Origin: Paracoccaceae bacterium
GTDB taxonomy: Bacteria; Pseudomonadota; Alphaproteobacteria; Rhodobacterales; Rhodobacteraceae
DNA length: 48,033 bases
Reading direction: 5' to 3'
NCBI GenBank assembly: GCA_902534325.1
Contig: CACAPQ010000017.1
Location: 1 to 48,033, forward strand
The notes beneath the pieces are model-generated. The model did no database searches. It saw nothing but the letters and a program-made list of their open reading frames with translations, and had not been told where the DNA came from. The translations under genes were made by a program, and so were the position numbers. The number at the start of each line of letters is the position of its first letter. Positions within the stretch are counted from its first letter, which is position 1. Below are positions 7,312 to 31,220 of this stretch, piece by piece.

Positions 7312-7490
7312 TAAATTAGAACCATCTTTGAATAACTATAAATGCGATCTTTATATCGCTTTTGTTAATACAGGAAACAGCATTTTTCTTAATTACGACA
7401 AATTCATTGGCGCTAACAGAAAAGAAATTCGATAGAATTGCAACTTTGTCTAAATTGAGACTAAATTTAAGTTTGAAAAAAGATATTTAA

Positions 7491-12908: not shown

Positions 12909-14210
12909 ATGATCAATTTAGCAACCTACTCCTATCCTAAAGGTCTTCACCTTTTAAAATCATGGCAAGCTGGTAGCGAAGACGCAAAAGCAGAGATCAA
13001 ATCTGTATTCGACGCAGCAATTGCTGGTAATTTTGATGAAAACTTTTCTATTCTTGCTCCAGCTGATGAGGTCCATTCAACAGCCTCTGTGCATATGTTA
13101 GCTCTCGCCATCTTGAATGACTTGTATGGTGTCACTTCCGCTGAATACTATAAAACTGATCCCTATAGGTATGTTCGCGCAAACCTTACTGTTGGTAGGC
13201 TATTAGGTGTAAAAAAATTGTACATGACTTGGGCCCTCTATGCTTTTTCTTGCGAAGTATTAGGCCAAAAAATGATGTATCCAGATAAATTCCCTCCTGG
13301 ATCTGACCCTGATGAAGCTTTGATCAACAAAGAAAATTGCTTTGAATTAGAAACGCCAGATTTTAGTACAGGCATTGCTAAAATAATTGATGATATATTA
13401 CGCGTAACAGAAGAATTAACTGGCATGGAGCCTTTGCTCCAGATTTCAGCGCCTTACAGCCTTGCGGCCGATATATACGGTCAGGAACCACTTCTAGCAG
13501 ATGTTGTAAACGATCCAGATCATGTAAACGCTTTACTTGATCACCTGGCAGACAAAGTCATAATACCTTGGATTGAACATCATTTGACCGTTTTCCCTAA
13601 TGGATGGGTAGAGCTTTCAGATGCTTCAGGCTCTCCTTTTTTTATTGGGCCAGAAAATTGTAAAACGATGTCTATAAGGTCAATTCAACGGATGGATGGC
13701 GGAAACCTGTGGAACGGAAGAGTTTTTGACTGCAATTATAGAGGTGACTACGTAGCAAATGTACAAGGTAAAAATAGACGCTCCCGTAGGAGTTCAAAAA
13801 ATACCAGTGCACCCACTAAAGTAGACTTAAATGAGTTGACTGATATAAAATTTAGTGTCTGTCAAAAATTTATGATGCGTCTAGAGGCGGACAAAGTTGA
13901 TGTTGCTTTTTATCGCGACCAATCGTTGGAGAGAAATATACCTTTAACAGCCGGCATAGGGTCTGGTGAGGTTGATAGAAACAGTATAGAAGACCTTGAG
14001 ATAGCAAGACATCAGTTAGGCACAGCAGCAAGTGATTATGTAAGAGCAATTAAAGAAGTCTGTGAAAAAATTGACTTACCAGCAAACAATTTTGTAAATG
14101 AACCTTGGCCAAGCCATCTTTATTTTGAAGATCTGAATGGCGAGTCAGAGTTCGGCCTCGTAGAGCTTATTTTAAAGCAAGTATACGACTGTCCTAAAAT
14201 AGTCAGATAG
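12909..14210 (+). CDS. URO-D superfamily protein, possible methyltransferase
   Basis: This 433-residue protein has the uroporphyrinogen decarboxylase superfamily fold signs. These are YVRANLTVGRLLGVKKLYM near 84, an insertion-rich centre with LQISAPYSLAADIYGQEPL near 178, DPDHVNALLDHLADKV, and ELSDASGSPFFIGPENC near 234. It lacks the N-terminal RQAGRY motif of true HemE, so haem synthesis is unlikely. It also lacks the H-x-C zinc site of MtaA/CmuA-type corrinoid methyltransferases. A basic, serine-rich insert (KNRRSRRSSKNTS) follows residue 285. The C-terminal third is not recognisable. Two palindromes precede the gene and a hairpin follows it. Function unknown; methyl transfer is only a family-level guess. 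Confidence 0.6.
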   Translation: MINLATYSYPKGLHLLKSWQAGSEDAKAEIKSVFDAAIAGNFDENFSILAPADEVHSTASVHMLALAILNDLYGVTSAEYYKTDPYRYVRANLTVGRLLGVKKLYMTWALYAFSCEVLGQKMMYPDKFPPGSDPDEALINKENCFELETPDFSTGIAKIIDDILRVTEELTGMEPLLQISAPYSLAADIYGQEPLLADVVNDPDHVNALLDHLADKVIIPWIEHHLTVFPNGWVELSDASGSPFFIGPENCKTMSIRSIQRMDGGNLWNGRVFDCNYRGDYVANVQGKNRRSRRSSKNTSAPTKVDLNELTDIKFSVCQKFMMRLEADKVDVAFYRDQSLERNIPLTAGIGSGEVDRNSIEDLEIARHQLGTAASDYVRAIKEVCEKIDLPANNFVNEPWPSHLYFEDLNGESEFGLVELILKQVYDCPKIVR

Positions 14211-14213
14211 ACC

Positions 14214-14249
14214 TTCAAGAAAATACGTTTAAAAAACGTCAATCTTGAA
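14214..14249 (+). other. Two-step hairpin after the URO-D-like gene
   Basis: TTCAAG (14214-14219) pairs with CTTGAA (14244-14249), and inside it ACGTTT (14225-14230) pairs with AAACGT (14234-14239) around a three-base loop. No T run follows, so it may be an mRNA end-stabiliser, a Rho-assisted terminator or a DNA site rather than a classic terminator. Confidence 0.4.
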
Positions 14250-14320
14250 ATACCATAGGGTCTAAATTTGTTTTAGAGTAACTATGTCGTAAATTTATAA
14301 ATTCTTCGGGTTGTTATTTA

Positions 14321-16546
14321 ATGGGAAATAAATCTTCAAAAATAACCACAAGTCATTGGGGGGCATTCAACGTATTTGTCGAAAATGGCAGAATAATTAA
14401 TACTGAACCTTTCCACGCCGACCCTGCACCTCCAAACATTTCACAGCTTGTGCCAAGTGCTGTCCATCATTCAAAGCGGATTGACCAACCCTACGTTAGA
14501 AAGGGTTGGTTGGAAAAAACAACATCTACCAAAAGGGGAAATGATGAATACGTTCCTCTCGCCTGGGAAGATGCGATCGACCTTGCCGCCAAGGAGTTAA
14601 TTCGAGTAAAAAGTAATTTTGGTAATGAGGCTATATTTGGTGGATCTTACGGTTGGGCAAGTGCCGGTCGATTTCATCACTCACAGAGCCAGTTGCACCG
14701 GTTTCTTAATTCTATGGGCGGCTATATTAGCTCATATGCCAGTTATAGCACTGGCGCGGCACAAGCGATTATACCCCACGTTTTAGGACTAAATTTCCAT
14801 AAAGTAACTTGGGGAGAAATAAATAGCTGGTCGTTGATAGAAAAACATACTGATAACCTGATTATTTTTGGGGGCATCAATCCCAAAAATTCTCAAGTTA
14901 GCATGGGTGGATCCACAGAGCATGATGTATCCAGTCAGTTCAAAAAATTTGGTTATGCGGGCAAGAAGATGGTTTCAATTAGCCCACAAAAAGATGATAG
15001 CCCCAACGAGACTAGATGGCTTCCGATAAACCCAGGCACAGATGTCGCTTTAATGCTAGCTATAGCCCATGTTTTAGAAACTGAGGAACTAGCAGACCAG
15101 TTATTTTTGAGTAAGTATTGCTCTGGTTACGAATTATTTAAGAAATATTTTTTAGGAAGAGATGGGCATTTTGCCAAAACACCTGAATGGGCTTCCGAAG
15201 AAACAGGTATTGACGCTTCTGAAATCATAAAACTCGCTAGAAATATGGCATCAGGTCGTACCTTAATAAGTGTTTCATGGTCTTTACAAAGAGCGCGTTA
15301 CGGAGAGCATCCTTTCTGGATGGCTTGTGTTTTAGCCGCCATGCTAGGTCAAATTGGCCTACCTGGAGGAGGCATTGGCTTTGGTTACGGGGCAATTGGA
15401 AATATCGGCAAAACCGCAAAAAGAATGCAAGGCCCTCTTTTTGAACAAGGCACAAACCCGATCTCTGATTTTATACCCGTCTCGCGCATCGCAGACATGC
15501 TATTAAATCCGGGTAGACCCTACAATTTCAACGGTGAAAAACGGATTTATCCAGATATAAAACTTGTTTACTGGTGCGGCGGAAATCCATTCCATCATCA
15601 TCAAGATCTGAACCGCCTTGCCAAAGCTTGGCAATATCCCGAGACTGTAATCGTCCATGAACCTTGGTGGACAGCTACAGCCAAGCGAGCCGATATAGTT
15701 CTTCCAGCCACCACACAATTTGAGCGATCAGATATAGGTTGGGCGAAAGGTGATCCATACATATTTTATATGCCTCAGATGATCCCACCCGTAGGGCTCG
15801 CAAAGGATGATTATGATATTTTTGCTGAACTATCTAAAAAGCTTAATTGCGAGGAAAATTTTACAGAAAATCAATCATCCGAGGAATGGATTCAGAGCAT
15901 CTATGATAAGTTTTATATGCAGTCTAAAAGTCAAGGAATTAATGTTGCGGACCTAGAGACACTTAAAGAAAAAAATTTCGAGAGAATGACGATTGATCTG
16001 GATGGAGAGAACTACGTACCTTTCAAAGCTTTCCGGGATGACCCCTTAAAGAGTCCACTTGCCACACCAACCGGAAAAATTGAGATATATTCAGAAAAAA
16101 TCGCAAAATTTAATTACCCAGAAATTCCTGGTCATCCTATTTTTAATAAACCTCTTTTGGACCAGAAGTTTCCTCTTCGTTTACTATCCCCACAACCTCA
16201 TGATAAGTTACATAGCCAACTACAAGCAGCTGCTGAGGACATAACTAAACATGCAGTTTTAGTTATGAACCCTCACGATGCAGGAAAAAGAGGTATTTCA
16301 AAAGGTGATTTAATTAAAATCTGGAATTCTAGAGGGTCTTGTCTCGCCACTTTAGAGATCAAGGAAACAATTATACCTGGAGTCATCTCACTGGCAACGG
16401 GTGCATGGTTTTCACCGACCAAAGAAGGTTTAGACATTTCTGGCAACCCTAATGTGCTAACAGCAGATACAGGTACGTCAGATTTGGGACAAGGCGCTGC
16501 AGCACATAACATCGAAGTGGAAGTCGAAAAATACCAAGAAAACTAG
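14321..16546 (+). CDS. Cytoplasmic molybdopterin oxidoreductase, DMSO/biotin-sulfoxide reductase family
   Basis: This 741-residue bis-MGD enzyme is of the BisC/TorA/DorA group, which reduces S-oxides or N-oxides. The molybdenum serine ligand is Ser143 in SYSTGAAQAIIPHVLG. Other family stretches are HTDNLIIFGGINPKNSQ, LPINPGTDVALMLA, WCGGNPFHHHQDLNRL and ADIVLPATTQFERSDIG, plus a C-terminal cofactor-binding domain (LLSPQPHDKLHSQ ... ATGAWFSP). There is no Tat signal and no N-terminal iron-sulfur cysteine motif, so it should act in the cytoplasm like BisC or a methionine sulfoxide reductase. Its stop codon shares the bases CTAG with the stop of the convergent marR. Substrates could be DMSO, TMAO, biotin or methionine sulfoxide. 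Confidence 0.85.
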   Translation: MGNKSSKITTSHWGAFNVFVENGRIINTEPFHADPAPPNISQLVPSAVHHSKRIDQPYVRKGWLEKTTSTKRGNDEYVPLAWEDAIDLAAKELIRVKSNFGNEAIFGGSYGWASAGRFHHSQSQLHRFLNSMGGYISSYASYSTGAAQAIIPHVLGLNFHKVTWGEINSWSLIEKHTDNLIIFGGINPKNSQVSMGGSTEHDVSSQFKKFGYAGKKMVSISPQKDDSPNETRWLPINPGTDVALMLAIAHVLETEELADQLFLSKYCSGYELFKKYFLGRDGHFAKTPEWASEETGIDASEIIKLARNMASGRTLISVSWSLQRARYGEHPFWMACVLAAMLGQIGLPGGGIGFGYGAIGNIGKTAKRMQGPLFEQGTNPISDFIPVSRIADMLLNPGRPYNFNGEKRIYPDIKLVYWCGGNPFHHHQDLNRLAKAWQYPETVIVHEPWWTATAKRADIVLPATTQFERSDIGWAKGDPYIFYMPQMIPPVGLAKDDYDIFAELSKKLNCEENFTENQSSEEWIQSIYDKFYMQSKSQGINVADLETLKEKNFERMTIDLDGENYVPFKAFRDDPLKSPLATPTGKIEIYSEKIAKFNYPEIPGHPIFNKPLLDQKFPLRLLSPQPHDKLHSQLQAAAEDITKHAVLVMNPHDAGKRGISKGDLIKIWNSRGSCLATLEIKETIIPGVISLATGAWFSPTKEGLDISGNPNVLTADTGTSDLGQGAAAHNIEVEVEKYQEN

Positions 16547-17019
16547 CGTTTTAGCGTTGATGCAAAATTTGCTAACTTTCTAATCAATTCTCTAAAATTC
16601 TCACGCTCCCTGTCAGAAAGGATACTAAAAATTTCAGCTTCACGTTCCACTAAATATGCTGAAATCTTCTTATGCATAATTTTACCTTCCTTAGTGATCT
16701 GTAGTTTAGCTTGTCTTGCATCACTTGGATCAGGCACTCTCTTCAAAAAACCTAAATCCAGCATTCTATGGACAGCTCGGGAAATTGAATTCCGGGGTCT
16801 CCTTGTAATTCGAGCCACCTCCTGTGCCGTCAATTCAGGATAATGTGCCAAGCATAGCAATAAATGATACTCTGCCCTCACTAAGCCAAAATCTTTTCTA
16901 ACGTCCTCATATGTTGGAAATACGATCGCATTCGCCAGATACGAAACCTTATATGCATCAGGGAACTCTACAGCCTCAAAAATATTTGAATAATCGAGAT
17001 CCCCTTTCTTTTTGACCAT
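16543..17019 (-). CDS. MarR-family transcriptional regulator
   Basis: This 158-residue winged-helix dimeric regulator has VRAEYHLLLCLAHYPELTAQEVARI leading into the recognition helix (RPRNSISRAVHRMLDLGFLKR) and the beta-wing DPSDARQAKLQITKEGK, the MarR hallmark. It starts at an ATG with AGGA four bases upstream. It is divergent from the six-gene PanB-like/Rieske operon, and the shared 104-base gap contains a perfect palindrome over that operon's start site. MarR proteins usually repress such a divergent operon and release DNA on binding a small phenolic, acyl or CoA ligand. The same palindrome occurs at the TRAP operon. Confidence 0.92.
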   Translation of the reverse strand: MVKKKGDLDYSNIFEAVEFPDAYKVSYLANAIVFPTYEDVRKDFGLVRAEYHLLLCLAHYPELTAQEVARITRRPRNSISRAVHRMLDLGFLKRVPDPSDARQAKLQITKEGKIMHKKISAYLVEREAEIFSILSDRERENFRELIRKLANFASTLKR

Positions 17020-17123: not shown

Positions 17124-17978
17124 ATGCGAGAAAGCAAACTTACTATACCCGAATTAAATGATAAAAAAGCTCAAGGTGAAAGATTAGCTATGGTGGCTGT
17201 TGGCGAAGCCATGTCAGCTGCTTGGGCGGAGCGAGCCGGGGTGGATATAATTGGAGTTGGAGACAGCTTAGGTATGACTCTGCATGGTCATCAAAATACG
17301 TTGCAAATCACCGTCGACCAAATGATTATGCACATCCTCGCAGTCCGTAATGGTGCACCAAACACAATGACGATCGCATCTATGCCATATGGTTCCTATG
17401 CAACTGAAAAAAAAGCCGTGGAAAATGCTATAAAAATAATGAAAGAAAGTGGCGTAGATGCCCTCAAGCTACAGCTCGGTAGCGAAGGAGCCAACATCAT
17501 AAAAGCCGTTGCAGATGCAGGGGTTCCCATAATGAGCCATGTTGGACTTCTTCCCCACAAAGTACATCTTCTTGGTGGCTTTAAAATGCAGGGTCGAACG
17601 GCTGATGCAGCCATTGAAATTATTGAGAATGCTGAAGCAATCGAAGACGCTGGCGCCATTGGTTTGGAAATAGAGGCCATGCCCTATGAAGTGGGCAAAG
17701 CTGTGGATGACGCCGTTTCTATTTTCACCTTCTCGATTGGCGCAGGGTCAGCCGGAACATGCCAATTGTTAAATGGTTATGATTTGCTCGGAGCTTTTGA
17801 TACTTTCAAGCCTAAATTTGCAAAGCGTTATGCTAATTTGAGTGAAATTGCCACCAAAGCCTTTTCGGATTACGTCCAGGAGGTTCAAACAGGTAAATTT
17901 CCAGATGAAGATCATAGCTACAAAATGAACGAAGAAGAAATAAAAAAGCTCAATAAAGTGCTATCGAAGAGGAACTGA
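17124..17978 (+). CDS. PanB-like aldolase (ketopantoate hydroxymethyltransferase family)
   Basis: This 284-residue TIM-barrel protein aligns along its whole length with PanB, which transfers a C1 unit from methylene-tetrahydrofolate to 2-oxoisovalerate. Conserved are GVGDSLGMTLHGH (Asp47, equal to E. coli Asp45), Lys115, SHVGLLP (His139), GGFKMQGR and Glu184, equal to the catalytic Glu181. Two acidic residues of E. coli PanB are changed: the metal ligand Asp84 is Ser86 (ASMPYGSY) and Glu114 is Gln117 (LKLQLGS). The usual TAYDY start is also missing. It is the first gene of a MarR-controlled catabolic operon, not beside panC. I infer a related aldol or C1 reaction on a different oxo acid. Confidence 0.8.
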   Translation: MRESKLTIPELNDKKAQGERLAMVAVGEAMSAAWAERAGVDIIGVGDSLGMTLHGHQNTLQITVDQMIMHILAVRNGAPNTMTIASMPYGSYATEKKAVENAIKIMKESGVDALKLQLGSEGANIIKAVADAGVPIMSHVGLLPHKVHLLGGFKMQGRTADAAIEIIENAEAIEDAGAIGLEIEAMPYEVGKAVDDAVSIFTFSIGAGSAGTCQLLNGYDLLGAFDTFKPKFAKRYANLSEIATKAFSDYVQEVQTGKFPDEDHSYKMNEEEIKKLNKVLSKRN

Positions 17979-17980
17979 AA

Positions 17981-19066
17981 ATGAATATGCAAGGGAAAAA
18001 CCCTACGGGTCAACGAATACCGAATGGTATGTTAGTGGATAACTACCCCCGTAATATGTGGTGGGTTGCTGCCTACAGTGAAGAGGTAACCACTAAACCA
18101 ATAACACGATGGTTGTTGGAAACACCTGTTGTGCTTTACAGGTTGGAGGATGGAACACCCGCAGCCTTATACGACCGCTGTCCACACAGGTGGGCGCCTT
18201 TATCTGAAGGACACGTAAGTGGTTCGAAAATCATATGCCCATACCATGGTATGGAGTTTGATACACAGGGGAACTGTACTAAAGCACCCACCCAAACCAT
18301 GATGCCCAAAACGGCACAAATTCCCTCCTATCCTGTGAAAGAAGCTGGCGCATTTGTTTGGATATGGATGGGTGATCCAGAGGCAATTGATCGAGAGCCT
18401 CCTGATGTTGCATATCAGGTAGATAAAGATTGGAGCTTTATTACGGGTTACATGGAAGTGGCCGCAAATTGGATTTTAATCCGAGAAAATGTCATGGATT
18501 TAACTCATATTGCTTTTTTACATAAAAATACTTTCAAGCAAGATGATTGGATTACTGCTCCAGATACTTACTGGGAGGGCGAGTCAATTTGTTACGAGCA
18601 AGAGTTCGATCTCGCACCCCTTTCTCCATTATTTTGTGCGGGCATGGGATTACCTGAAGACAAGCCTATCAAGCGAATTCAGAAAGGAACAATGCCTTCA
18701 CTTGCAATCTCATTTTCTGATTGGAAGGTTCATGATCCAAAGCCTGAAAATGGTCGCCGTTCAGATTACATTATGCGAGGTTGCCACATCGTAACCCCAT
18801 CTACTAAAGGCAAAACCCATTATTTTTGGGGGGCCGCTTTTGATGTCCCAGAAATAACTCAAGAGGTTGCAGACAAAACCAAGGCTAGTGTGGTAGCTGC
18901 ATTTAATGAGGATAAAGATCTCCTTCAAAAACTTCAGAAAAACGTTGATAATGACCCACGTGGACTTGACTATTTGGAAGTAACGCTTAGTGCTGACGGA
19001 GCAGGTGTAAAGGTTCGCCAGTTGTTAAATAAAAAACTTGCGGCCGAGGGCCGCTTATTAAGCTGA
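17981..19066 (+). CDS. Rieske non-haem iron oxygenase, VanA/O-demethylase type
   Basis: This is the oxygenase component of a Rieske monooxygenase, 361 residues. The Rieske centre uses Cys67-x-His69 (CPHR) and Cys86-x2-His89 (CPYHGM). The mononuclear iron site is ENVMDLTHIAFLH, with bridging Asp173 and ligands His176 and His181. Overall order and size match vanillate O-demethylase, dicamba demethylase and toluenesulfonate methyl-monooxygenase, which hydroxylate methyl groups and often release formaldehyde. It starts two bases after the PanB-like gene with GAGGAAC as ribosome-binding site. A ferredoxin lies three genes downstream; no reductase is present. Substrate unknown. Confidence 0.88.
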   Translation: MNMQGKNPTGQRIPNGMLVDNYPRNMWWVAAYSEEVTTKPITRWLLETPVVLYRLEDGTPAALYDRCPHRWAPLSEGHVSGSKIICPYHGMEFDTQGNCTKAPTQTMMPKTAQIPSYPVKEAGAFVWIWMGDPEAIDREPPDVAYQVDKDWSFITGYMEVAANWILIRENVMDLTHIAFLHKNTFKQDDWITAPDTYWEGESICYEQEFDLAPLSPLFCAGMGLPEDKPIKRIQKGTMPSLAISFSDWKVHDPKPENGRRSDYIMRGCHIVTPSTKGKTHYFWGAAFDVPEITQEVADKTKASVVAAFNEDKDLLQKLQKNVDNDPRGLDYLEVTLSADGAGVKVRQLLNKKLAAEGRLLS

Positions 19067-19080
19067 AAATTGAAGAAACT

Positions 19081-19938
19081 ATGACCATCAAAAATCAACG
19101 TCCTAGAAGAAGTTTCATTTTTACTCCGGGGCTTAAACCTGAAATGTATCCAAAAGCTCTGGCCAGTGGAGCAGACATTGTGTGTGTAGAATTGGAAGAT
19201 GGAATTGCTCCAAAAGATAAAGCGGAAGCCCGAAAAAATGCTCTTGCTTTATTTGAACAGCCACAAGCCGATGACGGCGTGGAAAGGATGGTAAGGATCA
19301 ATTCCATGCGAGAGCGTTTTGGTATTGAGGATGTGAACGCTATTCTTGCCACAAAAACACCACCTCCAGCTTTGATGATGCCAAAAGTTCGAACTCCAGA
19401 TGAGGTTGTAATACTGGATCAATTACTGACCGAGGCTGGGCATAATTCACGACTTCACGTCATTATTGAAACTAATGAGGGACTTGAGGCAGCGTATGCT
19501 ATAGCAAAGTGCTCAGAAAGAATAGATGCTCTGTTTTTTGGGGGAGTTGATATGGCTGCTGAATTACGATGTCCAAACAAATTTGAGACATTATTTTACG
19601 CCCGATCACGTGTGGCCCATGCATCTGCATTAGCCGGTCTGGATGTTTTGGATGTGCCCTATCTTGATTTGGATGATCCGGAAGGGATGCGAATAGAAGC
19701 GCAGCGAGTTCGTGATTTAGGTTTCACCGGAAAAGGCTCTATTCATCCAAAGCAAATTGCCGCATTAAATGAAGTCTTCACACCAACAAAAGACCAAATT
19801 TCCCGTGCGCGAAGAATTATAAATGAATTTGAGGCTGCCGATACAGGACTTGTGGTTATTGATGGTAAGTTAATAGAGAAACCAGTTATGCGAGAGATGT
19901 ACCGAATTATTTCAATCGCAGACCGATTGGGAGAATAA
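19081..19938 (+). CDS. HpcH/HpaI-CitE-family aldolase/lyase
   Basis: This 285-residue TIM-barrel lyase is of the citrate lyase beta/malyl-CoA lyase type, which cleaves or forms beta-hydroxyacyl-CoA esters or related hydroxy acids. Visible are VELEDGIAPKDKAEAR at 37-51, Arg72 in VRINSM, Glu130 in IIETNEG and Asp157 in GGVDMAAELRC (the two magnesium ligands), and GKGSIHPKQI at the end. Spacing to the Rieske gene is 14 bases, and the SBP56 gene follows after three. In this operon it may split the product built or modified by the PanB-like enzyme, for example into pyruvate or acetyl-CoA plus an aldehyde or acid. Citramalyl-CoA lyase is another option. Confidence 0.82.
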   Translation: MTIKNQRPRRSFIFTPGLKPEMYPKALASGADIVCVELEDGIAPKDKAEARKNALALFEQPQADDGVERMVRINSMRERFGIEDVNAILATKTPPPALMMPKVRTPDEVVILDQLLTEAGHNSRLHVIIETNEGLEAAYAIAKCSERIDALFFGGVDMAAELRCPNKFETLFYARSRVAHASALAGLDVLDVPYLDLDDPEGMRIEAQRVRDLGFTGKGSIHPKQIAALNEVFTPTKDQISRARRIINEFEAADTGLVVIDGKLIEKPVMREMYRIISIADRLGE

Positions 19939-19941
19939 TTA

Positions 19942-21291
19942 ATGGAGTGTTGCGGACCAGGCTATTCAAGCCCACAAGAGGCGATCAAGGCCCCTAATGA
20001 AAAATTACTTTACACAATAGCAATCTATACCGGGACAGGCATTCAGAAACCAGATTATCTGGCAACTGTAGATGTCGACCCTAAAAGCCCTACTTATAGC
20101 CAGGTTATTCACAGACTTGAGATGCCAGGTATAGGCGATGAGTTACACCACATGGGATGGAATGCTTGTTCAAGCTGCCACGATGATAGTTCAATGTCTC
20201 GAAAATTTCTTATTCTTCCTGGTGTCCGATCAAACAATCTACACATTGTGGATACGGCGACAGATCCGCGGGCCCCACGTCTTCACAAAATTATAGATGG
20301 AGCAGAGATAAAAGGGAAAGCTGATTTATCTGGACCTCACACTGTTCACTGCCTAGGATCAGAAATCATCATCTCTTTCCTTGGTAATGCCAAGGGTGAG
20401 GCCCCGGGCGGATACCTACAGCTCGACAAAGACTTTAATATTGTCGGCCGATGGGAAAACTCAATGGGCGACATTAAGTTTGGCTATGACTTCTGGTATC
20501 AACCTCGACATAACATTATGGTGAGTTCTGAATGGGCGGCGCCTAATACATTTATGCCTGGATTTGATTTAGAAGAAGTGGGCCACCTCAAATATGGTCG
20601 CGAACTACATTTCTGGGATTTTGAGAACAAAAAACCCATTGAAAGTTTCTACCTGGGCGAAGATGGTCTCCTTCCTCTAGAGGTAAAATTTCATCATAAC
20701 CCGGACAGCACCCATGGGTTTTGTGGAGCTGCACTTTCAACCAACGTTATTCACTGGTGGAAAGATGATACCGGTAATTGGAAATGGGAAAAGGTAATTG
20801 ATGTAGAAAATGAAATGCATCCCGATTGGCCGATACCACTCCCCGGTGTTATGTCGGCAATTCTTATTTCAATGGATGACAAATATCTTTACCTCAATAA
20901 TTGGTTACATGGTGATATGCGCCAGTATGACATTTCTGATCCTCACAAGCCTGTTCTGACTGGCCAAGTTTTCATGGGTGGTCTGCTCGGCAAGGCGCCA
21001 AAGGTCAATGGTGTTGAAGTTGCAGGGGGCCCACAAATGTTTCAGTTAAGTCTTGATGGAAAGCGCCTTTATGTGACGACTTCACTTTTTTCGACTTGGG
21101 ATAATCAATTCTACCCAGAAATAAGAGAGAAAGGTGGCATAATGGTTCAAATTGATTGCGACCCAATCAACGGCGGAATGAAGATTAACCCAGACTTTAT
21201 GGTAAATTTTGGTGAGGAACCGAATGGTCCAAGCAGGTGTCATGAAGCAAGATACCCCGGTGGCGATTGTACGAGTGATATCTGGTTATGA
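19942..21291 (+). CDS. mtoX: Selenium-binding protein 56 family, probable methanethiol oxidase
   Basis: The 449 residues match the SBP56/SELENBP1 beta-propeller family along the full length: CCGPGYSSPQEAI at the start, DYLATVDVDPKSPTYSQVIH, DELHHMGWNACSSCH (His69, His70, Cys76, Cys79), HTVHCLGSE, HHNPDSTHGFCGAAL, NNWLHGDMRQYDISDP and RCHEARYPGGDCTSDIW. Bacterial MtoX and human SELENBP1 convert methanethiol to formaldehyde, sulfide and hydrogen peroxide using copper. Unlike the MtoX of Hyphomicrobium there is no signal peptide, so it should be cytoplasmic. It overlaps the ferredoxin gene by four bases. The methanethiol substrate is family knowledge, not shown here. Confidence 0.82.
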   Translation: MECCGPGYSSPQEAIKAPNEKLLYTIAIYTGTGIQKPDYLATVDVDPKSPTYSQVIHRLEMPGIGDELHHMGWNACSSCHDDSSMSRKFLILPGVRSNNLHIVDTATDPRAPRLHKIIDGAEIKGKADLSGPHTVHCLGSEIIISFLGNAKGEAPGGYLQLDKDFNIVGRWENSMGDIKFGYDFWYQPRHNIMVSSEWAAPNTFMPGFDLEEVGHLKYGRELHFWDFENKKPIESFYLGEDGLLPLEVKFHHNPDSTHGFCGAALSTNVIHWWKDDTGNWKWEKVIDVENEMHPDWPIPLPGVMSAILISMDDKYLYLNNWLHGDMRQYDISDPHKPVLTGQVFMGGLLGKAPKVNGVEVAGGPQMFQLSLDGKRLYVTTSLFSTWDNQFYPEIREKGGIMVQIDCDPINGGMKINPDFMVNFGEEPNGPSRCHEARYPGGDCTSDIWL

Positions 21292-21653
21292 CAGAGCATA
21301 GAGTAACCCTTTCTAACAGAGATGGTGCAATATATACTGTTAATGGACGGCGTCCGTTACTAGAACAACTCAGAGATCAAGGCGTCGATCTTCCTTATGG
21401 CTGTGAATATGGTGGTTGTATCACCTGTGCTGCGAAGCTCGTGAAGGGCAATATTGATCAGCGTCGCCAGGTCGCGCTCAATAACAGACAGATAGAAAAT
21501 GGATATGTAATATTATGTGTGGCGCGCGCGACATCAGATATTACATTAGAGATCGGCGTAGAAAGTCACGATAAGCTGTACCGTAATCCTTTCTTGGATC
21601 CCCTGAAGCCGCATGAATTGAAAGCAGATATTGCCACGTCGGAAGAAGTTTAA
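21288..21653 (+). CDS. Plant-type [2Fe-2S] ferredoxin
   Basis: This 121-residue ferredoxin has the cluster ligands Cys39, Cys44 and Cys47 (YGCEYGGCITCAAKL) and Cys77 (ILCVAR), a standard beta-grasp fold and an acidic C-terminal tail. It overlaps mtoX by four bases (ATGA) and the next gene by one base (TAATG), so translation is coupled. It is the natural electron donor for the Rieske oxygenase of the same operon. VanA-type partners normally get electrons from a fused flavin-ferredoxin reductase (VanB); here the ferredoxin is free-standing and the reductase must be encoded elsewhere. Confidence 0.88.
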   Translation: MTEHRVTLSNRDGAIYTVNGRRPLLEQLRDQGVDLPYGCEYGGCITCAAKLVKGNIDQRRQVALNNRQIENGYVILCVARATSDITLEIGVESHDKLYRNPFLDPLKPHELKADIATSEEV

Positions 21654-22117
21654 TGCCTGAAGCTGATATTGACCGCCTTTACGATTATGACCCCAAATAT
21701 CTTGCTGATATATTAAGATCAGTGAAGACCATAGCAATGGTTGGTGCAAGTGGTGATAAAACAAAGTTTAGTTATGGCGTGCTTCGTCAACTAAATGAAA
21801 TTGGCTATGATATTTTGCCTGTAAACCCAAACCCAAATGTAAAAGAGATACGAGGCTTAAAAGTCTATCACTCACTCGAAGAGATAGAAAAACCAATAGA
21901 TATGGTAGATGTTTTCCGTCCAAAAGAAGAGCTTTATGCCATCGCTGAAAAAGCAATATCTGTTGGTGCAAAAGTATTATGGGGTCAGATAGGCGTTTTT
22001 GACGATAAGGCTGCAAAGCTAGCAGAAGATGCAGGCCTTCAAGTTGTCATGAACCGTTGTCCAAAAATTGAGCTCTTCAGACCTTTTTGGAAACCGCGTC
22101 TTGATTTAAAAATCTAG
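21653..22117 (+). CDS. CoA-binding domain protein (YccU-type)
   Basis: This is a single Rossmann-fold CoA-binding domain of 154 residues with TIAMVGASGDKTKFSYGVLR at 25-44, YDILPVNPNPNVKEIRGLKVY, and a C-terminal GLQVVMNRCPKIE. Proteins of this kind resemble the CoA-binding part of succinyl-CoA synthetase alone and have no established reaction; some may bind or sense CoA thioesters. It closes the six-gene operon, overlapping the ferredoxin gene by one base. That a CoA-binding protein is so tightly tied to the CitE-like lyase suggests a CoA-thioester intermediate in the pathway, which is inference. Confidence 0.85.
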   Translation: MPEADIDRLYDYDPKYLADILRSVKTIAMVGASGDKTKFSYGVLRQLNEIGYDILPVNPNPNVKEIRGLKVYHSLEEIEKPIDMVDVFRPKEELYAIAEKAISVGAKVLWGQIGVFDDKAAKLAEDAGLQVVMNRCPKIELFRPFWKPRLDLKI

Positions 22118-22138: not shown

Positions 22139-23068
22139 TTAGCTAGAATTGATTTCTGCCTTCCAAATTCCCTCTTCAACCATATTTTCTATTTCATTTG
22201 TTATAATTTGTAATGCAGATCGCGCGGCCCGTGTGTTTTTTCTATCGGGTGCCATTGCTAAAATAAGTTGCCGTTTTATCCTTGGGGAAATGAAAGTTCT
22301 TGCTTCGAGCGTGCCCTCACTCAAATCCTCGTTTATAGCTGAAAGAGGAATAAACGCATGATAATTTCCAGTTTTAACAAGCGACTTTAATACTTCAAAA
22401 GCATCCCCGCTTATTGCGACATTCAATTTGACCCCAGCCTTAGATATTGCATTATCGACAAGTAATCGTATCCCGTGAGGGCGACTGGGCAACACAATTG
22501 GTAAATGCGCAATATCGTTGAGTTTTATTTCTTTGCCTAAGTCTTGCATTGTCCCAGGGGCACTTATTAGCGCAATATCTTCATAGAGAAGTTCTTTGCA
22601 ACGCAAATGCAAATCATGGGTAGGTCCATAAAGAAACGAAATATCTAAATCTCCACGATGTAACCACTCAATTAAATGTCCAGAATAACCCTCGACTATT
22701 CTCAGTGTTACATGTGGAAGCTCATTTTTTACCTTTTCGATCAAGCGTACTGCTAGAACTGAATTTATGCTCGGCATTAATCCTATCGCAACATTACCCG
22801 TAATACTTTCTGCGCTTGAACGCACTTCATCCACTGCCTGCTCGAGCTGCCTAATAATTCCTGAAACTCTCGAAAGAAGCTTTTCACCACTTTCGGTAAG
22901 CGCCATTCCCTTAACAGAACGATGGAATAATTGGGCACCCGATTTATGTTCTAAAAGCTTAATTTGTCTTGAAAGTGCAGGCTGAGCCAATCTTAATCGA
23001 TCGGAAGCGGCACTAAGTGAGCCTGTCTCTGCGACACAGATAAAAGTTTTTAATTGTTTAATATCCAA
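22139..23068 (-). CDS. LysR-family transcriptional regulator
   Basis: This 309-residue LTTR has an N-terminal helix-turn-helix (MDIKQLKTFICVAETGSLS... RLAQPALSRQIKLLEHKSG) and a two-lobed effector-binding domain from about residue 90. It starts at a TTG with GAAGG nine bases upstream; no better start exists. It is divergent from the first MmgE/PrpD gene and therefore probably activates the MmgE-MmgE-CaiB-ADH-ALDH genes in response to a pathway intermediate. An inverted repeat lies just upstream of its start. It converges with the end of the six-gene operon, 21 bases apart. Confidence 0.9.
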   Translation of the reverse strand: MDIKQLKTFICVAETGSLSAASDRLRLAQPALSRQIKLLEHKSGAQLFHRSVKGMALTESGEKLLSRVSGIIRQLEQAVDEVRSSAESITGNVAIGLMPSINSVLAVRLIEKVKNELPHVTLRIVEGYSGHLIEWLHRGDLDISFLYGPTHDLHLRCKELLYEDIALISAPGTMQDLGKEIKLNDIAHLPIVLPSRPHGIRLLVDNAISKAGVKLNVAISGDAFEVLKSLVKTGNYHAFIPLSAINEDLSEGTLEARTFISPRIKRQLILAMAPDRKNTRAARSALQIITNEIENMVEEGIWKAEINSS

Positions 23069-23183: not shown

Positions 23184-24539
23184 ATGAAACATAAAAAGTC
23201 CGATAACTTTAAAACCAAAAGCGTTTCTTCATCATTGGTTAGGTTCGCTCTAGATTTTGAACCTGAATTTGCTACAGACGAATTAAAACAGGTCGCTCAG
23301 CTTTCACTATTTGATTGGTTTGTAGTATCGATTGCAGGTCAAGCGGAACCGGTAAGCCATATTGTTAGGGGGCAAATTAGCAGCGAGGGCGGCAATGAAG
23401 ATTGTACAGTAATCGGAGCAACAAAACGGTTCCCAGCGAGAGCTTCAGCTCTCGCAAATGGAACAATAAGCCATGCACTAGACTATGACGATACACACTT
23501 TGCTTATTTGGGGCATCCAAGCGTGGCTATAATTCCTGCTGCAATAGCCATTGGAGAAAAAACGAATACGAAACCTGAAAAGTTTTGGAATGCAGTAATT
23601 TTAGGCTTAGAGATCGTAACACGAATTGGAGCTTGGTTAGGGCGCGACCATCATTTGACCGGATATCATTCAACAGCAACGGCAGGTGCTTTTGGAGCAA
23701 CAATAGCATCCTCCAAATTACTAGATCTCGATGAAAAAGCTACTAATTATGCCCTCGGTTTAGTTTCTTCTATGGCATCGGGCGTAAGAGCTCAGTTCGG
23801 CACTATGGCAAAACCTTTACATGCAGGAATGGCAGCCGCGAATGGCGTAGAAGCTGCACTATTTGCACAGGCAGGCCTTATTTCAAATCCTGACGCACTT
23901 GAGGCGGAACATGGTTTCGCCGATACGCATACTACCCAAAATCGTGATACAACAAAAGCTTTAAACGGCTTAGGTGAATATTGGATGCTCAAAGAGGTTC
24001 TACATAAATATCATGCCTGTTGCCATGGACTACATCCAGCACTTGAAGCCTTACTTCAAGTACGAGAAAAAAATAATCTTATTACTACAAATATTGAGAA
24101 TGTTTCTATCGCAGTGCCACCAAGATATCTCAAAATTTGTCATATCCTCAGCCCTAATACTGGATTAGAGGCAAAGTTCAGTTTTCGCTTATCTGCAGCA
24201 ATGGTTCTTAACGGACAAGATACAGCGGCGCTTTCTACATTCTCAAGTAACGCTTGTAAGAACCCAGACTTAATTTCTTTGAGAGATCGAGTTTCTGTTA
24301 CGCCAAATACAAACCTAGGTGAAACCGAAGCCTTTGTTCAAGTGCAAACAACCAATGGTGAAATATTAAGTGCAAAATACGATATTAATAGAAGTCTGCC
24401 TTATAAATTTCGAAAAGAAAAAATAATGAATAAAGCTTTTGCTTTACTGGGGGAAAGTAGCGCCCTTGAACTATGGGATTTAGTGGCCAAAGGTGATCCT
24501 ATGGAATTCTATAAAGTGAATAAAATTGGGCTCAATTAA
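23184..24539 (+). CDS. MmgE/PrpD-family protein, paralogue 1
   Basis: This 451-residue protein belongs to the MmgE/PrpD family, which includes 2-methylcitrate dehydratase, cis-aconitate decarboxylase and iminodisuccinate epimerase. Typical stretches are ALANGTISHALDYDDTHFAYLGHPSVAIIPAAIAI near residue 90 (core HALDYDDTHFAYLGHPS), GYHSTATAGAFGATIASSKL, MAKPLHAGMAAANGVEAAL and YHACCHGLHPALEALL. It starts at an ATG with no evident ribosome-binding site. It is divergent from lysR and 122 bases before a second paralogue. Which small di- or tricarboxylate it acts on is not readable; the family covers dehydration, isomerisation and decarboxylation. Confidence 0.85.
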   Translation: MKHKKSDNFKTKSVSSSLVRFALDFEPEFATDELKQVAQLSLFDWFVVSIAGQAEPVSHIVRGQISSEGGNEDCTVIGATKRFPARASALANGTISHALDYDDTHFAYLGHPSVAIIPAAIAIGEKTNTKPEKFWNAVILGLEIVTRIGAWLGRDHHLTGYHSTATAGAFGATIASSKLLDLDEKATNYALGLVSSMASGVRAQFGTMAKPLHAGMAAANGVEAALFAQAGLISNPDALEAEHGFADTHTTQNRDTTKALNGLGEYWMLKEVLHKYHACCHGLHPALEALLQVREKNNLITTNIENVSIAVPPRYLKICHILSPNTGLEAKFSFRLSAAMVLNGQDTAALSTFSSNACKNPDLISLRDRVSVTPNTNLGETEAFVQVQTTNGEILSAKYDINRSLPYKFRKEKIMNKAFALLGESSALELWDLVAKGDPMEFYKVNKIGLN

Positions 24540-24558
24540 AAATCTACTTCGAATATTT

Positions 24559-24581
24559 TTATATAAAAATCTTTTATATAA
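24559..24581 (+). repeat. AT-only perfect inverted repeat between the two mmgE/prpD genes
   Basis: TTATATAAAA-ATC-TTTTATATAA is a perfect ten-base inverted repeat with a three-base centre, 19 bases after the first stop codon. It could be a weak terminator, a promoter element or an operator for separate expression of the downstream genes. Confidence 0.4.
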
Positions 24582-24661
24582 TGTATTCTAGCAATCGAAT
24601 TTTTAAATGAACAATATCCTATAAACTGAGAGTGTATAACTCTGATTGAAATTTAAAAAGA

Positions 24662-26047
24662 ATGGAGAACCTTTTGGGCCATCAACAAAACGAAGCAATA
24701 ACTGAAAAACTCTCGGAATTTGCCTTTAATTTCAGCTACGCCAATCTACCCCGTGAAGTTATAGAGCAGGCAAAATTATTTATCCTCGATACTGTTGGCT
24801 GTGCTCTTGGGGGTAGAACGCAAGCCAAAGAAGAAGTGTCTTGGATAACAATGTTTACAGACACTCAGAATTCAAAAGGTAGCTCAACTATTTTTGGAGA
24901 AAAAGGAAAAACCAGCGCCGCAATAGCAGCTCTGGCTAATGGTGCAATTGCGCACACTATCGATTTTGATGATACACATATGCCTTCAATCTCCCATCTG
25001 GGCTCTTCGTTGGTGGCGACAACATTTGCTATAGGTGAAGAACTTAATTCTAGCGGTGAAGAAATAATTGAAGCTTTCGTGCTAGGCTTTGATGTGGCAG
25101 GTCGCGTAGGACGATGCGCTATGCCCAGCCATTATAAATACTGGCATCCAACAGCTACTTTTGGAGGTATTGGGGCAGCAGTGGCAGCAGCAAAACTTCT
25201 AAAGCTAGAGAGTAAGCAGATAGAGATGACAATAGGCCTTGCCGCCGATGCAGCCGGAGGGCTACGATATGGTGTCGACAACGGCGATTTTTCCAAAAGT
25301 TTACATCCAGCTATGGCCGCAATGAAAGCGGTATTGTTTGCCCAGTTAATTAAAAATGGAGCGACGGGCCCATTAGGAATCCTTGAATATTCCTCAGGGT
25401 TCTTCAATGCCTTTTCAGAAGAACCAAATTTCGAGCCGTTGCTTGATCGATTGGGCGAGTATTACGAAATAAGTGTTGGTGGGCTAAAATCTTTTCCGAC
25501 TATTCAGTGTAGCCACACGGCAATTTCAAAAACACTAGAGCTGGTTAAAGAAAATAGCTTGAAAAAAGATGATATTGCGGAGGTTAGTATCATTCAGTCT
25601 GAGACAATGCCTGGTCAAGGTATGAATTATACTCCCAATAGTCCTTTAGCGGCCCGCCTGAGCACACCCTTTGCCGTTTCACTAGGTCTCCAAGACGGTG
25701 CCGTATCGCTTGAAAGATTTACGGAAGACACTCTAGCTGACCCTGAAATAAACGAAATAATGTCGCGCATTAAAATTGACTCTAGCACTCAGCTGGCTGA
25801 AGAGCACCCAAATACCGTTGCATCGGTAGTAGATATTAAAACTCTGGATGGCAGAAAATTCTCTGGTAAGCAAATCTTTGCAAAAGGAGATCCAAATAAT
25901 CGGATGACTTCAGGGGAGATAGAAGAAAAATTTCATAAATTAAGTTTACCTGTTCTTGGAGTTGATAAAGCAGGGCAAGTTGCTAAAAAAATAATTAACT
26001 TGGAAGCGATCAGAGACCTCGATGAAATTACCCAAATGTTGCGATAA
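24662..26047 (+). CDS. MmgE/PrpD-family protein, paralogue 2
   Basis: This 461-residue family member is clearly related to, but not a recent copy of, the preceding gene. The shared signatures are ALANGAIAHTIDFDDTHMPSISHLGSS (core HTIDFDDTHMPSISHLG), YWHPTATFGGIGAAVAAAKL, DFSKSLHPAMAAMKAVL and a longer C-terminal domain ending in a KGDPNNRMTSGEIEEKF-type segment. This last motif is closer to methylcitrate dehydratase/MmgE than in paralogue 1. The CaiB gene follows after 27 bases. Two divergent paralogues in one cluster suggest two stereospecific or consecutive steps, or a heteromer. Confidence 0.85.
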   Translation: MENLLGHQQNEAITEKLSEFAFNFSYANLPREVIEQAKLFILDTVGCALGGRTQAKEEVSWITMFTDTQNSKGSSTIFGEKGKTSAAIAALANGAIAHTIDFDDTHMPSISHLGSSLVATTFAIGEELNSSGEEIIEAFVLGFDVAGRVGRCAMPSHYKYWHPTATFGGIGAAVAAAKLLKLESKQIEMTIGLAADAAGGLRYGVDNGDFSKSLHPAMAAMKAVLFAQLIKNGATGPLGILEYSSGFFNAFSEEPNFEPLLDRLGEYYEISVGGLKSFPTIQCSHTAISKTLELVKENSLKKDDIAEVSIIQSETMPGQGMNYTPNSPLAARLSTPFAVSLGLQDGAVSLERFTEDTLADPEINEIMSRIKIDSSTQLAEEHPNTVASVVDIKTLDGRKFSGKQIFAKGDPNNRMTSGEIEEKFHKLSLPVLGVDKAGQVAKKIINLEAIRDLDEITQMLR

Positions 26048-26074
26048 CGAATAGGGAATAAAAAGGATAAAGCC

Positions 26075-27205
26075 TTGAGCAACCCATTTTCTGATTTGCT
26101 TGTTGTTTCTCTAGAACAGGCCCTGGCAGCACCTTTATGCACGTCAAGGCTAGTTGATATGGGTGCTAGGGTGATAAAAATTGAACGTGCTGAAGGAGAT
26201 TTCGCCCGAGGTTATGATTCAGCGGCCAATGGTGATAGTTCTTATTTCTTGTGGACCAATCATGGAAAGGAATCTGTTGTCTTAGATTTGAGATCTGAAA
26301 AAGGCACAAAACTTATGCACCAACTGATCAAAAAAGCAGATGTCTTCGTTCAAAATCTAGCTCCAGGAGCAACAAAAAGATTAGGCTTTGGTTCAGAAAA
26401 AATGCGGAATGAAAATTCAAAACTAATTACATGCGATATTTCTGGCTACGGCGAAACTGGCCCTGCAAGCGCATTAAAAGCTTATGATTTTTTAGTCCAA
26501 GCTGAAAGTGGCCTCGTTGATATTTCAGGAGGGCCAAACGAGCTTGGTCGTATTGGGGTATCAATATGTGACATCGGTGCTGGCATGACTGCGCATGCGG
26601 CAATTGTTGAGGCTCTTTTTTATAGAGAACGCACTGGTGAAGGTTATGGTGTCAACATATCTTTATTTGGTGTTGCATCAGATTGGATGAATGTGCCCCT
26701 ACTGCAGTATAAATATGGTGGTAAAAGTCCAAAAAGAGTGGGGTTAATGCATCCGTCTATTCAGCCTTATGCAGCGTTCTCTGCTAAAGACGGATCCAAA
26801 GTAATTATAGCTATTCAGAATGAACGTGAGTGGGCTCGATTTTGCACACAAGTTCTTAAACAACCTGAACTTGCTACCGATCCCCGTTTCAATAGTAATA
26901 ATGAAAGGGTAAAAAATGTGGAAGCTCTGCATAAAACAATAAATAACACTTCAAATCAGCTGTCAGTCAGCGAATTTACTACCTTACTAACTGAAGCTGA
27001 TATTGCGTTTGGTTCAGTCAATTCAGTCAGTGCGCTTTCCAATCATATCGGGCTTAATTTGATTAACGTAAAAACTACCAAGGGAGACGAAGTAACAATG
27101 GCAGCCCCACCCATTAATCGGACTATAGACACAAATAAGAGTTTACCATCACCACCCAAATTGGGAGAACATACCGCAAAGATTTTCAAAGAATTTGAAA
27201 TGTAA
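26075..27205 (+). CDS. CaiB/BaiF-family (type III) CoA-transferase
   Basis: This 376-residue family III CoA-transferase moves CoA between carboxylic acids through a mixed-anhydride on an aspartate. Family features are VVSLEQALAAPLCTSRLVDMGARVIKIER near the N-terminus, LRSEKGTKL, VQNLAPGATKRLGFG, CDISGYGETGPASALKAYDFLVQAESGL with the catalytic Asp in YDFL, and GYGVNISLF. It starts at a TTG with AAGGAT nine bases upstream. Its place after the MmgE/PrpD genes suggests CoA activation of an unsaturated or branched dicarboxylate such as itaconate, mesaconate or a homologue. Acceptor and donor are unknown. Confidence 0.87.
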   Translation: MSNPFSDLLVVSLEQALAAPLCTSRLVDMGARVIKIERAEGDFARGYDSAANGDSSYFLWTNHGKESVVLDLRSEKGTKLMHQLIKKADVFVQNLAPGATKRLGFGSEKMRNENSKLITCDISGYGETGPASALKAYDFLVQAESGLVDISGGPNELGRIGVSICDIGAGMTAHAAIVEALFYRERTGEGYGVNISLFGVASDWMNVPLLQYKYGGKSPKRVGLMHPSIQPYAAFSAKDGSKVIIAIQNEREWARFCTQVLKQPELATDPRFNSNNERVKNVEALHKTINNTSNQLSVSEFTTLLTEADIAFGSVNSVSALSNHIGLNLINVKTTKGDEVTMAAPPINRTIDTNKSLPSPPKLGEHTAKIFKEFEM

Positions 27206-27232
27206 ATGATAAAATTGGATTAGTATTTAAAT

Positions 27233-28306: not shown

Positions 28307-28322
28307 GGAGGTCGGTTCGATA

Positions 28323-31129: not shown

Positions 31130-31147
31130 TAGTTCTACTTTGAACAA
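31130..31147 (+). promoter_or_regulatory. MarR operator-like site, copy 3, after dctP
   Basis: TAGTTC-TACTTT-GAACAA begins one base after the dctP stop codon. It keeps the GTTC-N6-GAAC core and matches the copy at 29906 at 13 of 15 central positions, spacer included. No promoter is evident after it, so it may be an auxiliary operator or a chance or RNA structure. Confidence 0.45.
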
Positions 31148-31148
31148 T

Positions 31149-31179
31149 TAGCAATGCAGGCAGACAGCTTGCATTGCTA
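31149..31179 (+). other. Intercistronic hairpin between dctP and dctQ
   Basis: TAGCAATGCA (31149-31158) and TGCATTGCTA (31170-31179) form a perfect ten-base-pair stem with an 11-base loop, and no T run follows. Such hairpins after binding-protein genes commonly protect the upstream mRNA, so that more receptor than membrane subunit is made. Confidence 0.65.
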
Positions 31180-31220
31180 GAACAAAATAATAGACTTAAA
31201 CAAAACAGGTAAATCTCAAA

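Follow-up and report, generated by a model that had tools for sequence, protein, structure and literature searches.

A six-gene run bordered by two regulators

The stretch of DNA analysed here (hereafter the window: 48,033 nucleotides, contig CACAPQ010000017.1 of a Paracoccaceae bacterium) carries a run of six forward-strand genes that begins with a relative of the pantothenate enzyme PanB and goes on with a Rieske oxygenase, a CitE-like lyase and an SBP56 protein of the methanethiol oxidase type. Each of the six starts with ATG, and all six Pfam assignments exceed the respective cut-off. Two regulator genes border the run:

16543-17019, reverse strand: MarR-family regulator (Pfam), divergent from the run and probably its local regulator
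17124-17978, forward strand: gene A, PanB-like protein; PF02548, ketopantoate hydroxymethyltransferase, 286 bits (Pfam)
17981-19066, forward strand: gene B, Rieske oxygenase of the VanA_C type; Pfam Rieske and VanA_C
19081-19938, forward strand: gene C, CitE/RipC-like lyase; Pfam HpcH_HpaI
19942-21291, forward strand: gene D, SBP56 protein of the Rhodobacteraceae cluster 1 methanethiol oxidase type; Pfam SBP56, 683 bits
21288-21653, forward strand: gene E, [2Fe-2S] ferredoxin; Pfam Fer2
21653-22117, forward strand: gene F, coenzyme A (CoA)-binding protein; Pfam CoA_binding_2
22139-23068, reverse strand: LysR regulator (Pfam), convergent with the run

The open reading frames (ORFs) of the run are separated by 2, 14 and 3 bases and then overlap by 4 and 1, in agreement with the genes, positions and spacings listed in a first-pass annotation of this DNA. 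Promoter-like matches at the operon numbered 10 (shuffle mean, 11.5) and terminator-like matches 7 (shuffles, 5.4; standard deviation, 2.4); because these counts resemble those of shuffled DNA, they neither support nor break the operon. The gene order is not a product of chance, since parts of it recur across many other genomes. The source genome (G000) is a 2.09 Mb draft in 74 contigs and 77.8% complete; in three close records titled Rhodobacteraceae bacterium (L038, L039 and L040) the PanB-like protein is 89-93% identical to that of the window.

The PanB-like and Rieske genes form one module

An alignment of four PanB-like proteins, used to search GTDB genomes, yielded 73 loci (L numbers), some of them on short contigs or stopping at contig ends, in which genes were recounted by tblastn. 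By record title these are mostly Alphaproteobacteria, with gammaproteobacterial entries (L053, L057, L068, L074, L104 and L107) and other groups (L076, L097 and L110); L110 was counted although it looks canonical (361 bits, both of the acidic residues discussed below retained). Two loci, L064 and L109, gave no called PanB-like ORF and are absent from the 72-row alignment and the tree, but tblastn detected the gene in all 73. On viral contigs, 26 pattern matches to relatives were obtained, none of which was confirmed by tblastn. We also searched an even draw of 292 Rhodobacterales genomes, accepting PanB-like matches with E up to 1e-70 and Rieske matches with E up to 1e-60.

The PanB-like and Rieske genes are one module. 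Each was found in seven of the 292 Rhodobacterales genomes, and these were the same seven (G000, G031, G049, G232, G265, G279 and G284), with the two genes adjacent in every case. Across the 73 loci a Rieske gene was present in 39, directly downstream of the PanB-like gene in 38, while a gene for PhyH, another iron oxygenase, was present in 16 and directly downstream in five; one or the other occurred in 47. L074, outside these 47, holds a Rieske fragment truncated by the end of its contig. A MarR gene like that of the window accompanied 28 of the loci. Moreover, the divergence of the PanB-like and Rieske proteins was correlated over 38 gene pairs (37 loci plus the window; r = 0.64), and none of 500 permutations exceeded 0.30.

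The Rieske protein of the window contains CPH...CPYH at residue 67 and DLTHIAFLH at residue 173, matching the patterns CxH..CxxH and DxxHxxxxH that we take to be the cluster-binding and iron sites, and it carries the VanA_C domain. Among solved structures, dicamba O-demethylase DdmC comes closest to it in sequence (E 4e-47). VanA_C domain and best structure match are thus common to the window enzyme and the DdmC/VanA-type Rieske demethylases; what sets the window enzyme apart is its partner, the PanB-like protein.

Other oxygenase combinations were seen at two loci. In L061 a third oxygenase type, a TauD-type dioxygenase (11939-12760, forward strand), follows the PanB-like and Rieske genes, with PhyH two genes further on. 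L107, of gammaproteobacterial title, combines two different GcvT/DmdA-type genes, Rieske, PhyH and PanB-like genes, with the others on the opposite strand.

Two acidic residues of PanB are replaced in the PanB-like protein

In a tree, the PanB-like proteins of the window and 70 loci formed a clade of 71 rows with 100/100 support against the 26 canonical PanBs of the family; L110 fell on a long branch between the two. Alignment to Escherichia coli PanB (1m3u) placed S86 of the window protein at the position of D84 and Q117 at that of E114. Over the 72 rows the D84 position is serine in 46, alanine in 25 and aspartate in L110 only, and the E114 position is glutamine in 71 and glutamate, again, in L110, whereas all 26 canonical PanBs retain both residues. 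The positions of D45, S46, K112 and E181 are retained in 72/72 rows and that of H136 in 70/72. As the locus scan used other stretches as patterns, the residue changes were not selected for. D45, D84 and E114 (E. coli numbering) are presumably the residues that hold the enolising metal. This metal drives enol formation in PanB (PMC7770189). The first-pass annotation had suggested carbon-skeleton rearrangement and cleavage by the PanB-like and CitE-like enzymes; with two acidic residues of the presumed metal site lost, plain aldol chemistry becomes less likely.

A predicted structure of the protein gave the PanB fold, with 3vav as the best Foldseek match (template modelling scores 0.77/0.84). 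Its mean pLDDT (predicted local distance difference test) was 78.9, and residues 49-59, 143-154 and 223-236 scored below 50; we therefore read no pocket from the model. Overall, the protein resembles PanB (EC 2.1.2.11) in fold, length, most aligned active-site positions and family scores, and differs from it in the change of D84 to serine or alanine, the change of E114 to glutamine, its separate clade and its Rieske neighbour.

To relate the family to pantothenate synthesis, we surveyed 50 of the 73 genomes behind the loci (G000 and G100-G148, all drafts) for PF02548 and for PanC. Every one of the 50 had a PF02548 match. PanC was present in 14 of the 16 genomes with a PF02548 match above 310 bits (absent in G121 and G138), and in 9 of the 34 without such a match, G000 being among the 34; in two of these nine (G126 and G145) PanB fragments adjoin PanC. 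PanC was not found in the 77.8% complete draft of the source genome, nor in any of the 15 incomplete drafts of one clade (G100-G114), where no full-length PF02548 gene other than the PanB-like one was found. Taken together, the PanB-like protein is probably not the pantothenate enzyme, and canonical PanB function was rejected as the leading interpretation on the changed residues, the separate clade and the PanC survey. At L085, L088-L096, L098-L100, L102 and L106, the loci of this clade of mostly single-cell genomes, the PanB-like gene lies amid housekeeping-looking genes, with neither Rieske nor PhyH nearby.

SBP56, ferredoxin and CoA-binding protein form a second module

SBP56 orthologues with 85-92% identity occur in 21 further genomes of the 292-genome draw, and two more have 67-68% identity; the neighbourhoods of all 23 were examined. 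Ferredoxin and CoA-binding genes directly follow SBP56 in 21 of the 23, that is, in all 21 close ones, and the two distant ones have the ferredoxin only. The three genes constitute the second module. Likewise, SBP56, ferredoxin and the CoA-binding protein occur in the same four of the 73 PanB-like loci. Further neighbours over the 23 places were IclR-type regulators (18), enoyl-CoA hydratase (7), DmdA-like genes of one group (6) and acyl-CoA ligases of one group (6). Among the 23, PanB-like, Rieske and CitE genes were seen at L156 alone, which is the place in the genome also covered by L087. A rhodanese-type gene stands beside the trio in three of the 23 (L158, L162 and L167), as expected if the product is sulfane sulfur.

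The first-pass annotation had paired the ferredoxin with the Rieske enzyme. It follows SBP56 in all 23 examined loci, one of which has a Rieske gene, and is found in two of the 39 Rieske loci, some of which end at contig ends. Being tied to SBP56 and rare beside Rieske genes, it is probably not primarily the oxygenase's partner, and we dropped the assignment to a dedicated Rieske ferredoxin.

The window SBP56 contains the cysteine motifs GWNACS (at 72), HTVHC (133) and GGDCT (440), and hence the three cysteines of cluster 1. Cluster 1 methanethiol oxidases carry GWNACS, HTV/IHC and GGDCS/T; two of them, RdMTO and RlMTO, were assayed and yielded sulfane sulfur, and formaldehyde was measured for a cluster 2 enzyme (PMC10936201). 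All three motifs are therefore common to the window protein and the Rhodobacteraceae cluster 1 enzymes, and the window protein differs in sitting in a trio with ferredoxin and CoA-binding protein. It is unlike MtoX of the Hyphomicrobium type, scoring 155 bits against the NCBIfam MtoX equivalog cut-off of 650. SCO1 and MauG neighbours are described for MtoX (PMC5739008); neither an SCO1/SenC nor a MauG gene lies beside SBP56 in the window, where its neighbours are the CitE, ferredoxin and CoA-binding genes.

CitE connects the two modules

CitE orthologues with 76-84% identity were present in nine of the 73 loci. The best NCBIfam match of the window protein was RipC (250.2 bits; cut-off, 375), and it scored 171.9 against the CitE cut-off of 443.4; it thus belongs to the same HpcH_HpaI family as RipC citramalyl-CoA lyase and CitE, and lies below both equivalog cut-offs. 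The gene connects the two modules: CitE, close SBP56 and PanB-like genes occur together in L045, L056, L073 and L087 (PanB-like identity to the window, 73-77%). L073 has both modules with CitE and lacks the Rieske gene, and the genes of L056 are on two strands. Five more loci (L041, L048, L054, L058 and L068) have PanB-like, Rieske, DmdA and CitE genes and no complete trio in the stretch examined. In L054 an SBP56 fragment only (7082-7347, reverse strand; two short matches, 55-59% identity) lies beside CitE. In L066 an SBP56 relative of 39% identity lies about 7 kb from the PanB-like/Rieske pair.

All six genes were found together in L045 and L087, 2 of the 73 loci. There, PhyH and DmdA are inserted between the second and third gene, and the order is MarR followed by PanB-like, Rieske, PhyH, DmdA, CitE, SBP56, ferredoxin and CoA-binding genes. 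Conserved co-occurrence of the six, proposed by the first-pass annotation as a check, was thus borne out for parts of the set, which recur widely, and for the whole in these two loci; the uninterrupted six-gene order was seen in the window only, among the loci examined.

The window operon is the joined form of two units that are separate in the sister species G122 (record AG-461-P07). Specifically, G122 has the PanB-like-Rieske pair on contig C2 (L039) and, on contig C42, a separate unit of CitE, SBP56, ferredoxin and CoA-binding genes followed by LysR. Three of these four genes are 94-96% identical to their window counterparts, the ferredoxin 76% and LysR 93%, and a gene of the GFA (glutathione-dependent formaldehyde-activating) family ends 17 bases before CitE. 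The earlier view that the six genes are 'surely one unit' therefore holds for the tight run in the window and not for the sister species, where they lie on different contigs.

DmdA- and MttB-type genes accompany many relatives

DmdA/GcvT-type genes were present in 34 of the 73 loci and fell into three groups without overlap (22, 8 and 4 loci for groups 1, 2 and 3); DmdA-like genes of L042 and a second copy in L107 were below thresholds and lie outside this count. MttB methyltransferase genes were present in 11 other loci, never together with Rieske or PhyH. Against the NCBIfam cut-off for dimethylsulfoniopropionate (DMSP) demethylase of 410 bits, the four scored of the eight group 2 proteins (L045, L048, L068 and L087) reached 448-483 bits, with 453 and 483 in the full six-gene operons of L045 and L087 respectively. 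Below the cut-off were the two scored group 1 proteins (L032 and L058; 360-364 bits) and the two scored DmdA-like proteins beside the SBP56 trio (366 and 379 bits). CitE accompanied six of the eight group 2 loci and 1 of the 22 group 1 loci (Fisher p = 3e-4, not corrected for shared ancestry).

Enzymes such as DmdA and MttB transfer onium methyl groups to tetrahydrofolate or cobalamin with no need for oxygen; neutral methylthio and amine methyls generally need oxidation. Many loci fit this division between onium and neutral methyls, because DmdA- or MttB-type genes lie near the PanB-like gene and Rieske or PhyH genes are present in 47 of the 73. Compared with the DMSP demethylation pathway (DmdA, DmdB, DmdC and DmdD), the fuller operons of relatives hold DmdA-type genes, and in some genomes the SBP56 trio lies beside DmdA-like, acyl-CoA ligase and enoyl-CoA hydratase genes. 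In contrast to that pathway, the cluster adds Rieske, PhyH, PanB-like and CitE genes, and the window operon has no Dmd gene.

A second point of comparison is a 20.3 kb fragment of Filomicrobium sp. Y in which GcvT and a gene annotated '3-methyl-2-oxobutanoate hydroxymethyltransferase' occur with a Rieske methanesulfonate monooxygenase cluster (PMC4433239). Its resemblance to the loci described here lies in the company of GcvT and a PanB-annotated gene, possibly of this clade, with a Rieske monooxygenase acting on a methyl-sulfur compound; on that fragment the GcvT and PanB genes are about 7 kb from the nearest msm gene, msmH (PMC4433239).

Flanking genes and possible uptake

Downstream of the LysR gene, the window contains two further groups of genes on the forward strand:

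23184-29801, forward strand: two MmgE/PrpD proteins, a class III CoA-transferase, a zinc alcohol dehydrogenase and a betaine-aldehyde-dehydrogenase-like enzyme, possible members of the same pathway
30038-33115, forward strand: DctP-DctQ-DctM of a tripartite ATP-independent periplasmic (TRAP) transporter, a possible uptake system

Upstream of the L087 operon lies a comparable group, made up of CoA-transferase, aldehyde dehydrogenase, acyl-CoA dehydrogenase, MmgE and TRAP genes. The binding protein of the window's TRAP transporter (at 30038) has among its closest solved chains one, 7ug8, that bears the name ketoacid-binding; in L042, a DctP 91% identical to it starts 351 bases past the PanB-like and Rieske genes. 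This kinship and this placement point to an acid as the substrate.

Upstream of the MarR gene (12909-16546, forward strand), two genes encode a protein that only just qualifies for the uroporphyrinogen-decarboxylase family (24.1 bits; cut-off, 23.9) and a BisC-family S/N-oxide reductase (857 bits; cut-off, 1017.55), a pair that keeps its place in L038, L039 and L040 with 82-95% identity. An S-oxide reductase beside the operon would fit a sulfur substrate. Further downstream (36378-37736, forward strand), a class III aminotransferase-fold protein scores above the NCBIfam cut-off for PbfA, (R)-1-hydroxy-2-aminoethylphosphonate ammonia-lyase (683 against 525 bits), a match that suggests possible phosphonate use.

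A possible demethylation route and its alternatives

Tentatively, and with somewhat less than even confidence, we read the run as two linked catabolic modules: oxidative demethylation, in which the PanB-like protein would transfer a hydroxymethyl group to tetrahydrofolate, joined to methanethiol oxidation. In this scheme, one methyl group on an S- or N-methylated compound would be hydroxylated by the Rieske oxygenase. The PanB-like protein would hand the resulting hydroxymethyl group, or formaldehyde derived from it, on to tetrahydrofolate, so that 5,10-methylene-tetrahydrofolate forms and the cell is not exposed to free formaldehyde. Methanethiol released further down would be converted by the second module to formaldehyde and sulfane sulfur, and the CitE-like lyase might cleave a CoA-bound hydroxy acid from the carbon skeleton. 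In the fuller operons, the DmdA-type methyltransferase would take the onium methyl first, without oxygen, and leave the oxygenase with the non-activated methyl; the order of steps is likewise putative. A role in hydroxymethyl transfer uses the known donor-acceptor pair of PanB and would explain both the loss of the metal site and the pairing with an oxygenase.

As for the substrate class, a methylthio acid or a dimethylsulfonio acid of the DMSP type would be likeliest. An S-methyl or sulfonium substrate, one of the options of the first-pass annotation, gains support from the DmdA proteins above the DMSP-demethylase cut-off in the L045 and L087 operons; its broader reading of demethylation combined with methanethiol handling is supported too. 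More specifically, the PanB-like proteins might be a new family for tetrahydrofolate-dependent hydroxymethyl transfer, by which Rieske and PhyH oxygenases could take off unactivated methyl groups and yet release no formaldehyde. Here, together with the methanethiol oxidase trio and a CoA lyase, they would make up an aerobic route, so far undescribed, for dimethylsulfonio osmolytes, among them gonyol, dimethylsulfonioacetate and methylthio acids derived from DMSP; in this full form we consider the proposal doubtful. Gonyol would suit a CoA-transferase and an aldehyde dehydrogenase, a CitE-like cleavage step, demethylation by a DmdA-type enzyme and a methanethiol oxidase; the known lyases of the CitE type, however, yield glyoxylate or 2-oxo acids, products that gonyol would not give. 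Another candidate process weighed was the demethylation of DMSP twice over, to 3-mercaptopropionate, as known from older physiology; our literature search turned up no paper naming genes for it. Bacteria are reported to consume gonyol and dimethylsulfonioacetate via unidentified pathways (PMC7221440). Homarine was considered as well, and the literature search gave no link to it.

Several observations weigh against two modules serving one demethylation route. The window operon has neither DmdA nor PhyH, and the two genes of the source genome above the DmdA cut-off (559 and 550 bits) are on other contigs. Since the modules are separate in G122, co-function of all six genes is not required. Neither Rieske nor PhyH was detected near the PanB-like gene in 26 of the 73 loci (including the canonical-looking L110 and short contigs), so that the pair is not universal outside the Rhodobacterales. 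The PanB-like protein exceeds the NCBIfam panB equivalog cut-off (TIGR00222; 247.2 against 207.55 bits) and that of PRK00311; in G131, G140, G143 and G144 PanC is present and the PanB-like gene is the sole PF02548 match, and there it may have a ketopantoate role. Single PanC absences prove little in incomplete drafts, and the 15 PanC-less genomes are incomplete. There is also, to our knowledge, no earlier example of a relative of PanB that works on an X-CH2OH group.

The same observations feed the alternatives. The modules may share a run and yet serve different substrates, PanB-like and Rieske proteins acting on an N or O compound and CitE-SBP56-ferredoxin-CoA-binding on methanethiol from ordinary DMSP demethylation, the two having been joined by deletion or rearrangement. 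The separate units of G122 and the location of the source genome's own dmdA genes argue for this, as does the examined gene content: 37 of the 39 Rieske loci (all except L045 and L087) are without close SBP56, and 20 of the 21 close SBP56 loci are without PanB-Rieske. However, CitE, SBP56 and PanB-like genes occur together in four records, and CitE and PanB-like in five more, which exceeds one chance fusion; we regard separate substrates as unlikely, if well worth weighing. A different departure from hydroxymethyl transfer, close to the proposal of the first-pass annotation, would cast the PanB-like protein as a C-C lyase or aldolase: its metal site would be altered or missing, and the Rieske enzyme would supply the substrate, a 2-oxo acid or an acid with a hydroxymethyl branch. 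The PanB fold of the protein and the retained D45, K112, E181 and H136 positions are consistent with such an activity, as are FAD (flavin adenine dinucleotide)-linked oxidases of the GlcD/2-hydroxy-acid type beside the PanB-like gene in L077 and L078 and two genes off in L063, in L032 a gene of the D-2-hydroxyacid dehydrogenase family about 3.5 kb away from the PanB-like and Rieske genes, and the nearness of the TRAP binding protein to ketoacid binders. Both changed positions belong to the presumed metal site, though, and PanB needs its metal for enol formation (PMC7770189); we therefore judge a lyase or aldolase rather improbable. Least of all do we expect a ketopantoate hydroxymethyltransferase whose operon supplies CoA precursors for CoA-dependent catabolism. 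The TIGR00222 and PRK00311 scores and the four genomes with PanC and a sole PF02548 match speak for it; the separate clade, the changed residues, the constant Rieske neighbour in Rhodobacterales, and the failure to find PanC in the source genome (78% complete) or in any of the 15 genomes of one clade make it very improbable.

Outlook

The statement of the first-pass annotation that no described pathway has this gene set has stood: our literature search, outside which most subscription journals lay, found no published description of the combination apart from the Filomicrobium fragment. The cluster looks like a variation on demethylation gene clusters already known, with a PanB put to new use, and like an undescribed breakdown route for methylated sulfur or nitrogen compounds. 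Records titled SAR116, HIMB11 and Planktomarina, as well as a large number of single-cell genomes, are among those that carry the PanB-like family. If hydroxymethyl transfer is its function, a family that curated models score as a vitamin B5 enzyme would be a one-carbon transfer enzyme of catabolism, and it would mislead predictions of auxotrophy. The cluster would then also offer candidate genes for the route by which dimethylsulfonio compounds from algae, DMSP aside, are broken down.

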